NCBI GenBank assembly: GCA_003602515.1
Contig: QQSB01000064.1
Span: 1,957-50,329 of the forward strand
From: Candidatus Poseidoniales archaeon
Lineage (GTDB): Archaea; Thermoplasmatota; Poseidoniia; Poseidoniales; Thalassarchaeaceae
Direction: 5' to 3'
DNA length: 48,373 nucleotides
The translations under genes were made by a program, and so were the position numbers. Positions 42,517 to 45,916 of this stretch are shown here, piece by piece. The notes beneath the pieces are model-generated. The model had not been told where the DNA came from, did no database searches, and saw nothing but the letters and a program-made list of their open reading frames with translations. How positions within the stretch are numbered: position 1 is the stretch's first letter; every line of letters starts with the position of its first letter.

Positions 42517-43605
42517 ATGACTGTAGTAAGTCTGGAGAGTTATTCCTCCTATGTTAGAGAAGTTGAGGGCGAATGCGCTTTCGTTAGAGTTTCGAATAAT
42601 CTTCTATTCGCTGGATCCAGAACTGGAGAAGTTGCGTGTTGGGATATCTCCAGGGGAGTGGAGTTGTGGAGACTCAATTTTGAAGGACCATGCTCCGACT
42701 CAGACTACGATGATGAGATTTTTTTCCTAACTGAGTCTGATAATATTCATGCAATTGGGAAGCATTCTGGCGAAGTAATCTGGAGTGTTATATTGGAAGG
42801 TTCGAGCGACTTTGTTAGGGTTTGTAATGGATTTGTATGGGTAACGACATCTGTCTACAACTTCGAGATTCAAGACTATTCAGAAGGGGTTGCTTGGCAA
42901 ATTGATTTTGAAGGTGAAGTTAGGAATAGGTGGGAGACGGTTGGCAGGGCTTGGTCATTGTCTGAACAAGAAGGTAAAATGATCTTAGGTCTCAGTCGTC
43001 CTAAATCCGGTTTTGCGATAGTTTCTGAGAATGGAGTAGAGTATCCTGAATTGGAACAACGGCAACCTGTGACAATTGGAATCGGAGGCGAGGAGGGTCC
43101 TGTAGTACTGGGGCACAGCGACGGGACGATCTCAGAAATCATTGAACATAGAGTAATATCTGTCTCTCAAGTTGAGTCTTCGGTTCGAGCGATTGACTAC
43201 TTTGGTGGTTGGGTGGTTGGAATGGAATCGGGAAATGTTTCTTCTAGCGAAGATTTGGGTTCTTGGTCTACTAATCTTAGCGGGGTGATTGATGTCCTAA
43301 GATTTGGACCATCTTTAGTTACCAAAAAAGGGGTTTGGGTATCATCTTCGAGTAATGGTGAATCTACAATATTTCTGATAGATCCCCTAGGAGGGAATGT
43401 GGAATTTGAGATGTCACATCATTCTAGAATTGTATCTGCTTTCAGTGATGAAGGGGTAATTTGCTTTGGAGATGATGCTGGTTGCATCTTTGTTTTGGAG
43501 GGTGAAGTACTTCGGCGTCGTTTCTCTCGGCCAGTGGAAGAAATGTCAGAAGGAGAAGGGAGTTCAGAGATGAGGAGGAAAATACGCGGACTGCGCGGAG
43601 GGTGA
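42517..43605 (+). CDS. WD40/PQQ-like beta-propeller protein
   Basis: Blades such as NNLLFAGSRTGEVACWDISRGVELWRLNFEG, DNIHAIGKHSGEVIWSVILEG. C-terminus SSEMRRKIRGLRGG. Confidence 0.72.
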   Translation: MTVVSLESYSSYVREVEGECAFVRVSNNLLFAGSRTGEVACWDISRGVELWRLNFEGPCSDSDYDDEIFFLTESDNIHAIGKHSGEVIWSVILEGSSDFVRVCNGFVWVTTSVYNFEIQDYSEGVAWQIDFEGEVRNRWETVGRAWSLSEQEGKMILGLSRPKSGFAIVSENGVEYPELEQRQPVTIGIGGEEGPVVLGHSDGTISEIIEHRVISVSQVESSVRAIDYFGGWVVGMESGNVSSSEDLGSWSTNLSGVIDVLRFGPSLVTKKGVWVSSSSNGESTIFLIDPLGGNVEFEMSHHSRIVSAFSDEGVICFGDDAGCIFVLEGEVLRRRFSRPVEEMSEGEGSSEMRRKIRGLRGG

Positions 43606-43664
43606 TTTGCAGTGGAAAAACACTGTCTGAGACCCTTATTTCCAGTGAACTGCGGCAATATTAG

Positions 43665-43685
43665 CGAAATGTTTATGGGCTACCC
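43665..43685 (+). promoter_or_regulatory. Possible archaeal BRE/TATA element upstream of structured RNA
   Basis: gcgaaatgtttatgggctacc: GAAA-type BRE followed by TTTATG, about 25 nt before the first structured helix. Confidence 0.35.
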
Positions 43686-43692
43686 ATAACCC

Positions 43693-44280
43693 TGTGATCT
43701 TTGCCGCTCCGGGGGAGTGGTGTGAGGGCGCTTCGGCGCGACTCGCGGGCCACAAAAACCGAGCCTCGAAACCGAGGCGGTAGAACCGAGAAACGAAAGA
43801 GTCTCGGGGAAAGGCTGGAGCGTCTGTGGACGCAAAGGTCGCGGCGAATAAATCGGAGTAACCGGAGGAAACGAAGGGGAGAGCGAGATAGGAGCTGAAG
43901 AGATACATGTGCGTAGGGGGAAGAGAATAATCCTGGGTCACATAAGTGGGAAACGAAGTGGAGAAAACCGGAGGAAACGAAGGGGAAGGAAACCGAGGGA
44001 AACACTGGGCAACAAGGGCGGAGAGATCCGTGGAGAAGTCAGTATCGAGACGTGGAAGGAAAAGCGGAGACGAAGTACCTGAAGCGGATGCGGCGATTGA
44101 GAGGGAGATCTCACAAGAGTCGGAAAATGACAAGGGAAGAGCACGAAGTTCCGGAGTCGTCTACCCGGGGAAACCTGGGCCTTCGGGCCCAGGCGACACC
44201 CGGACCCTGCGGAGTTAACAGGGGGGGAAGCTCCCCCATGTGCGGAACCCCCTGTTGCTCCCACCTGATTCGGCCCATAT
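43693..44280 (+). ncRNA. Large structured noncoding RNA candidate (~590 nt)
   Basis: No protein-like ORF. GC- and purine-rich against flanking genes. Multiple perfect hairpins including two C(UUCG)G-capped stems: GTGGTGTGAGGGCGCTTCGGCGCGACTCGCGGGCCAC (43717-43753) and CCTGGGCCTTCGGGCCCAGG (44174-44193, enclosed by CCGGG/CCCGG). Also GCCTCG/CGAGGC (43763-43778), CCGAGA/TCTCGG (43786-43807), GCGTC-TGTG-GACGC (43820-43833), AACAGGGGG/CCCCCTGTT (44217-44256). UUCG and GAAA loop polarity supports the + strand. Confidence 0.68.
43860..43986 (+). repeat. 21-nt perfect direct repeat inside the RNA candidate
   Basis: aaccggaggaaacgaagggga at 43860-43880 and 43966-43986; a related gggaaacgaagtgg lies at ~43948. 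Confidence 0.85.
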
Positions 44281-44314
44281 TCTTCTTCAGATTCCAAACG
44301 TAGTCGTACTTTCT

Positions 44315-45916
44315 CTATGAACTCGGACCAGTCATATCCCTGGGTTTCACCCAGTCTGTGAACTGATCATCGCTGAGTAGCTCGAGTTCGATAGCGCTCT
44401 CTCTCAGAGTCAATCCTTTCTCATGAGCGTTCTTCGCTATCTTAGCAGCATTGTCATACCCTATGTGAGGGTTAAGTGCGGTCACTAACATCAATGAGTT
44501 CTCCAAATGGTCAGATATTTTCTCTTTGTTCGCTTCCAAGCCAGCAACACACTTGTCGGAGAAAGACACGCAAGTGTCAGAAAGTAGCCTTATGCTGTGC
44601 AAGAGATTGTGTATCATCATGGGTTTGAAAACGTTCAATTCGAAGTTCCCCTGACTGCCACCAATTGAAATTGCAACGTGATTTCCCATCACCTGGCAGC
44701 AAATCATTGTCATCGCCTCAGATTGAGTGGGATTCACCTTTCCGGGCATGATACTGGATCCTGGCTCATTGGCTGGAAGGGCAAGCTCTCCGAATCCACA
44801 CCTAGGACCAGAGCCTAGCCATCGAATATCATTGGCGATTTTCATTAGAGATGCTGAGAGAGTGTTGAGGGAACCTGAGGCGGCAACGATTGCATCGTGT
44901 GCGGCTAGTTGAGCGAACTTGTTTTCAGCACTAATGAATGGTAGACTCGTCTTTTCAGCTATCTTCTCAGCAACCAGGTCTGCGAAGTCGGGATGTGTAT
45001 TCAGCCCCGTGCCAACTGCAGTTCCACCCAGTGCTAGCTCTAGTAGGTCATTCAGTGATGATTGGATTCTAATTAGATCAGCGTCCAGCATTGAGACATA
45101 TGCTCCGAACTCCTGGCCCAGAGTTAGCGGGACGGCATCCATGAGATGGGTTCGACCAATCTTGACAATGTCCTCGAACTCGTCGGCCTTTTCATCCAGA
45201 GAGGTTCGTAATGTCTGAACGGATGGTATTAGTCGATGTTGGATCTCCTCGGCTGCAGCGATATGCATTGCAGTAGGGAATGTGTCATTACTCGATTGAG
45301 CGCGGTTAACATGATCATTTGGGTGAACTGGAGATTTGCTACCCAGTTTCCCTCCTGAAGACTCGATGGCCCTATTTGCAATTACCTCGTTTGCATTCAT
45401 GTTGGTCTGAGTCCCGGAACCCGTCTGCCAAATTCTTAGGGGGAAGTGGTCATCTAGAGATCCGGAAATTACCTCTTCACACGACTCTGAGATAAGTTTT
45501 CCAATATCATCGTCAAGAGCTCCGAGCATTACGTTTGTGTCCGCGGCTGCCTGCTTAAGGATGCCAAATGCTCTGATGATAGATCGTGGCATTTGGTCCT
45601 CGCCGATATTGAAATTGATTAGCGATCTAGCAGTTTGTGCGCCGAAATACCTATCTGCAGGTACCTCGATTTCTCCCATTGTGTCTGCCTCGATCCTAAC
45701 CTTGCCAGGAATACCCTGAGGATTCCTGGCGACGACGGGTTTGGAAGTGATGTGAGAGGATTTTGACCCTGAGAGGGACGTCTCAATCATCTTCGAGATA
45801 GTTGCTGATCTTCCTTTATCGCGACCCTGTCCAACTCGCGCATCCAATCTTCTAGCCAGATCCTCAGGAATACTAACGGTAATTATTCTACGATCGCCTA
45901 CACGATGCTTTGCCAT
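44315..45916 (-). CDS. fumC: Class II fumarate hydratase with N-terminal ribbon-helix-helix domain
   Basis: N-terminal [40 protein letters not shown] (RHH/CopG-like), then Fum[87 protein letters not shown]. Confidence 0.93.

Follow-up and report, generated by a model that had tools for sequence, protein, structure and literature searches.

The region between a β-propeller gene and a fumarase gene in the window (the whole stretch of 48,373 nucleotides of Candidatus Poseidoniales DNA analysed here) raises the question of whether it encodes anything and, if so, in what form the product works. Comparison with related genomes identified positions 43700–44266 of the forward strand as a structured noncoding RNA that is conserved and probably transcribed on its own, an object larger than was first described. 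This conserved core (567 nt) is supported by identity above that of its neighbours, by a consensus fold and by covariation.

A blastn search with positions 43640–44300 detected the region in 25 of the 28 genus genomes (its own included), with 76–95% identity outside its own genome; six further genera of the family gave matches to parts of it. The three genus genomes without a match were only 53–67% complete. DNA identity across the RNA was about 84–95% within the genus, falling to 78–79% in the most divergent members; among the same close relatives the propeller gene was 51–80% identical and the fumarase gene 67–86%. Therefore, the noncoding stretch is more strongly constrained than the genes beside it, and by this measure the RNA evolves more slowly than either flanking gene.

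Folding of the single sequence gave -208.7 kcal/mol against -196.0 kcal/mol for shuffled sequences (z = -1.97), a value that 4 of 100 shuffles equalled. The first-pass annotation had proposed this comparison as a check, and the fold was better than the shuffles, although only modestly so; folding energy is weak evidence here and alone would not establish the RNA. The case was therefore made by comparison. Two alignments were annotated with structures drawn by hand: A1, covering the 5' domain (18 sequences from eight genera), and A2, covering the 3' domain (15 sequences from six or more genera). Compensatory changes, altering both sides of a pair while keeping it paired, occurred at 27 of 43 pairs in A1 and 14 of 32 in A2. 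No letter shuffle among 500 reached these values, and slid controls gave 4–11. Under a tree-aware null, where substitutions were placed on a FastTree tree in 300 trials, the count was 10.1 for A1 (maximum 17) and 3.5 for A2 (maximum 8), and the observed count was reached in 0/300 trials for each. The 3' hairpin of the second-family and divergent sequences (alignment A5) had compensatory changes in 7 of 21 pairs, against 2.6 under the null (0/300). A consensus of 20 sequences from the genus contained 150 pairs; compensatory changes were seen at 33 of these, compared with 1–8 in 15 column-shuffled controls; its energy was -340 kcal/mol, against -242 to -260 kcal/mol in those controls. The proposed search for conservation and covariation thus returned both, which favours a new RNA.

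The 5' core (UUUGCCGCUCC-NNN-GGAGUGGUG, 43700–43753) contains three helices: the hairpin P1 (43708–43716), P2 (43717–43720/43750–43753) and P3 (43722–43731/43736–43746), which is capped by a UUCG loop. P3 was paired in 97.5% of cases and carried compensatory changes in seven of nine pairs. The first 20 nt of this core were kept in both families and in one virus. The 5' domain continues with three hairpins: P4 (43758–43781), where compensatory changes were also present, P5 (43786–43807), with a GAAA loop, and P6 (43814–43839), with a conserved UGUGG loop; in P5 and P6 together, 16 of 19 pairs had compensatory changes.

Between 43840 and 44159 lies a variable, purine-rich interior of GNRA hairpins and G.A-rich stems, where covariation was observed in the genus consensus. 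One of its elements, CCGGAGGAAACGAAGG, occurs at 43863–43878 and again at 43969–43984. The closing pairs of two GNRA hairpins (43867/43872 and 43973/43978) flip between C-G and G-C, which argues that the purine-rich interior is structured too. A further helix (43908–43910/43940–43942) covaried among the 20 sequences of the genus consensus, and runs readable as G.A pairs were present in several stems. In other genera, different hairpins replace those of the interior. Near-repeats of CUGGACGCAAGGAAGGGGAAGGAA were observed within the RNA interior at L033 and L037, and suggest recent expansion of purine-rich hairpin arms.

The 3' domain includes two nested stems (44165–44203), for which covariation was seen in A2. 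Their architecture agreed with the first-pass annotation: an 8-bp stem, CCTGGGCC/GGCCCAGG (44174–44181/44186–44193), with a UUCG loop, stands inside a closing CCGGG/CCCGG helix (44165–44169/44199–44203). Both annotated cUUCGg caps, here (44181–44186) and on P3 (43731–43736), were likewise borne out as hairpins. The terminal hairpin (44211–44266) has an invariant base, GCGGAG ... CUCCCA, an internal GGAA/GGAA loop and a C-rich apical loop; its long stem, the 9-bp AACAGGGGG/CCCCCTGTT helix that had also been noticed beforehand, was located at 44217–44225/44248–44256. This helix covaried in the first family (f1) and, independently, in f2/g2/g3/g5. At L040 the counterpart of the internal loop is fully Watson-Crick, which suggests that the hairpin may be read as one continuous helix. 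Two pairings proposed earlier as joining the 5' and 3' ends did not hold. GCCG/CGGC could be formed at no more than 21 of the 44 loci and showed no compensatory change, and the CUCC of the supposed GGGAG/CTCCC pair (44258–44261) pairs instead with GGAG at 44211–44214, being invariant across 15 aligned relatives. A further helix between CUCCCACC at the 3' side and GGUGUGAG in the 5' domain, assessed by eye, suited some genera but failed in others, and is not claimed.

The distance from the 5' motif to CUCCCA was 561 nt in the window, and ranged from 430 nt (g7) to more than 900 nt (g3). The alignments indicate that the RNA has conserved termini and an interior remodelled genus by genus. A small hairpin followed the core in several genera. 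In genus g3, the 3' part of the RNA was observed in two tandem copies about 300–340 nt apart (L097:3136-4450, and other g3 genomes, e.g., G070:C85:3905-4275).

Independent transcription was suggested by the sequence upstream. The BRE/TATA element noticed at first pass proved real and conserved: CGAAATGTTTATG (43665–43677, forward strand) includes the TATA box TTTATG (43672–43677), 31 bp before GCCGC. Each of the 48 loci had a TATA-like hexamer 30–31 bp 5' of the GCCGC core, in most cases behind an AAA-rich BRE; transcription probably starts at about 43698–43703. Further upstream, a palindrome-like site, TTTGCAGTGGAAA (43606–43618; order-wide TTTCC-N3-GGAAA), lies at -97, and its position was -97/-96 in most of the 48 loci, from both families. 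A half-palindrome, TTTCCAGTGAACT (43639–43651), follows at -64, 33 bp or about three helical turns from the first. Across the loci, palindromes of the TTTCC-N3-GGAAA form stand near both positions. Their paired, spaced arrangement ahead of the TATA box implies that a dimeric transcription factor would control the gene. A search of the same genome for a regulon with such paired palindromes matched the exact pattern at this locus only.

The distribution of the RNA was established with covariance models. Among 245 genomes of the order, the 5' model (R1) had matches in 104; four of these belong to the second family and the other 100 to that of the window. The 3' model (R2) had matches in 85 genomes. 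A model of the second-family and divergent 3' form (R3) matched 53 of 294 genomes of the class and 23 of 394 of the phylum; in these two samples it found no match outside the two Poseidoniales families. When 85,488 species were scanned for the exact motif, all 55 matches belonged to records labelled Marine Group II, Poseidoniales, Thalassarchaeaceae/Thalassarchaeum or 'Euryarchaeota archaeon'. All genera sampled from Ca. Thalassarchaeaceae (MGIIb) have relatives of the RNA, as do three from the second Poseidoniales family (g14, g16 and g22). The RNA was not found in the second-family genera g11, g12, g13 and g15, where R3 had no match even in a single-contig genome; there, other genes follow the propeller, and in G051 the propeller nearly abuts the fumarase. 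The simplest history would be an ancestral RNA that was lost in part of the second family.

Genomic position was also conserved. The RNA lay downstream of the same propeller gene wherever that side of the locus was covered, and of the 55 contigs found by RNA motif alone, 53 carried the propeller, one of the other two being a 147-base stub. The convergent fumarase followed in nearly all of the loci found by blastn. Second-family and divergent first-family loci lay between propeller and fumarase where both neighbours were covered, except L092; their 3' hairpin kept GCGGAG...CUCCCA, with the stem rebuilt through compensatory changes. Because the interior could not be aligned order-wide, homology between the families is shown for the termini only. 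The P2/P3 motif was also observed at L044:1486-1622 (G018 contig C32:3985-4121; 34 bits by R1), with a promoter-like TTTATG upstream. This second locus is near moaA and away from the propeller, its flanks form AGUGC/GCACU, and it could be a paralogue, a contaminant or another RNA.

One probable relative was viral. L118 (IMGVR_UViG_3300007514_000005) is a 72 kb IMG/VR tailed-virus contig of the magrovirus type, with genes for terminase, portal, minor tail protein, PolB, Cpn60 and clamp-loader. It carries TTTGCCGCTCCTGTGGAGTGGTGTG, preceded at 30 bp by TTTATT, and, some 310 nt further on, CGCCCACCTT; in the basal stem of P3, an A-U pair is changed to C-G. With an R1 score of 18.1 bits (E about 0.001), the element is probably a viral relative of the RNA, on this one contig. 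The order-wide 3' hairpin model found no match in L118, the motif was not found in a related virus contig, and a phage collection gave no match. With a looser motif, four of five IMG/VR matches looked chance-like and had no R1 match; wider viral spread is not supported by these searches. In L118:1-1500, the RNA-like element is surrounded by numerous short repeats of the form ATTTGTAGC(GAAG/CAAG).

Sequence comparison therefore provides a conserved promoter belonging to the RNA itself, secondary structure, evolution slower than that of the neighbours, order-wide spread, and conserved terminal domains around a lineage-specific interior. With these, the locus is reasonably likely to encode a multi-domain structural RNA, stable and transcribed on its own, whose function lies in the RNA itself. 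The likeliest role would be that of a structural or RNP-scaffold RNA of the 'large ornate RNA' kind: the ends are fixed while the middle is freely remodelled, the promoter is dedicated and apparently regulated, and the gene is single-copy, features that suit a structural RNA or RNP better than an antisense regulator. The functional core, for folding and assembly, would consist of the two fixed terminal domains, and may bind a partner, either a protein or another copy of the RNA, while the interior arms would provide a species-variable scaffold. Such an RNA might work in the manner of the bacterial OLE, GOLLD and ROOL, and the neighbouring propeller protein would be the first candidate for a partner.

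The propeller gene (42517–43605, forward strand) encodes a PQQ_2-like protein of 362 aa (Pfam PF13360; structure model pLDDT 90) and is always just upstream of the RNA. It was present in 54 of 60 genomes, in single copy save for a few split or duplicated contig cases. The body of the protein is only about 25% identical across the order, but its basic C-terminal tail, RxxLxxKLRxLR (residues 347–360), is nearly invariant, and was predicted by the structure model to be a helix after a flexible linker. This fast-evolving protein was observed to keep its basic C-terminal helix order-wide, even where there is no RNA (A3, A6). An RNP in which the RNA is a subunit bound by that helix is a possibility to be taken seriously, if not a probable one. 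The two genes were adjacent on the same strand, about 80–180 bp apart, at all RNA-bearing loci examined, and this adjacency outlasts loss of the fumarase (L012, L014, L092). However, adjacency may equally reflect shared regulation or plain synteny, and both propeller and tail persist in the RNA-less f2 genera g11, g12, g13 and g15, so that the propeller cannot depend on the RNA alone. The other neighbour, a class II fumarase with an N-terminal RHH (44315–45916, reverse strand), was absent beside the RNA in L012, L014 and L092, the RNA staying with the propeller in L012 and L014. Not being always present, the fumarase is considered to lie outside the system. Regulation of the fumarase in cis was ruled out, given its convergent orientation and its absence from these three loci.

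The structural RNA might already be known in part. No report of it by name was found in open full-text papers; Tan1 (Thalassoarchaea ncRNA 1) is an abundant 229-nt noncoding RNA of MGII with a complex structure, fifth most abundant in RNA-Seq and abundant in sea water, with homologs 75–79% identical (Hou et al. 2016, PMC5069720). Some of the thirteen 'disordered-protein mRNAs' in that paper could be ORFs wrongly assigned to abundant noncoding RNA of this sort. Were Tan1 a piece of the present RNA, the transcript would not be new. By description, they share an MGII origin and complex structure, and the identity of Tan1 homologs resembles that of the between-genera blastn matches. They are set apart by length, at 229 nt for Tan1 against about 430 nt for the shortest homologue found here and more than 900 nt for the longest, and Tan1 is rather unlikely to be a piece of the present RNA.

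Other modes of action were also considered. A trans-acting regulator, in which exposed conserved loops base-pair with mRNA or rRNA, could use the C-rich apical loop of the 3' hairpin, the UGUGG of P6 or the CCCACCU 3' end, where loops are conserved while stems change; yet the loop sequences drift between genera, and the size and elaboration of the RNA are far above those of usual antisense RNAs, making this improbable. A ribozyme or metabolite-sensing RNA would fit a large folded molecule with near-invariant termini, but the RNA is free-standing, with no forward-strand gene downstream in cis, no ribozyme or riboswitch in Rfam matched it and no catalytic core was recognised, and this is quite doubtful.

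For a known archaeal RNA in divergent form, such as RNase P or SRP, the archaeal origin, size range and structure would be suitable, and the two named RNAs resemble this one in being large, structured and archaeal. Nevertheless, the same genome encodes both separately, well over cut-off (RNaseP_arch, RF00373, at C32:3621-3912; Archaea_SRP, RF01857, at C30:98332-98644), and neither covariance model matched in the window. The Rfam scan suggested in the first-pass annotation, run with Rfam 15, placed no family in the window at its gathering score, and the best sub-threshold scores within 43400–44500 were at chance level. RNase P and SRP identity was accordingly refuted, and a divergent known RNA of any kind is given almost no credence; of the two readings offered in the annotation, 'long ornate RNA of unknown class' was supported and 'very divergent known one' was not. 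A protein-coding region or decaying pseudogene is no more credible, in that, although ORFs can be drawn up to 165 aa (reverse strand) and 90 aa (forward strand, 18–90 aa per frame at longest), no conserved ORF was found on either strand among close relatives, in keeping with the annotation's finding of no credible protein, and the pattern of compensatory base-pair changes, conservation above that of the flanking genes and a fixed promoter refutes it.

The RNA has the dimensions of a large ornate noncoding RNA, being several hundred nt long with extensive covarying structure. Tentatively, it might be the founding member of an archaeal family of this kind: an RNA or RNP particle, order-wide and probably abundant, remodelled genus by genus between fixed ends, partly lost in one family and acquired by at least one virus. 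If so, it would be a major cellular component of ocean Group II archaea, overlooked by protein-centred annotation, and would extend the large ornate RNAs to archaea. The remodelled interior between fixed termini would offer structural work a natural mutagenesis series, and the models and coordinates allow direct testing on existing metatranscriptomes.

Large ornate RNAs have been treated as a kind (PMC12286853), and OLE, GOLLD and ROOL share with the present RNA a length of several hundred nt, elaborate covarying structure, a free-standing gene and a poorly understood function. They differ in that there is no sequence or Rfam match between them (the Rfam 15 covariance models for all three found nothing in the window), and in that the host here is archaeal and the chromosomal neighbour fixed. 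GOLLD and ROOL are also carried by phages (PMC12286853); here, the candidate is one tailed-virus contig (L118) that has the 5' domain and promoter, without a match to the 3' hairpin. Finally, GOLLD is conserved at one end and less so in another region (PMC12286853), whereas this RNA is conserved at both ends and variable in the middle.
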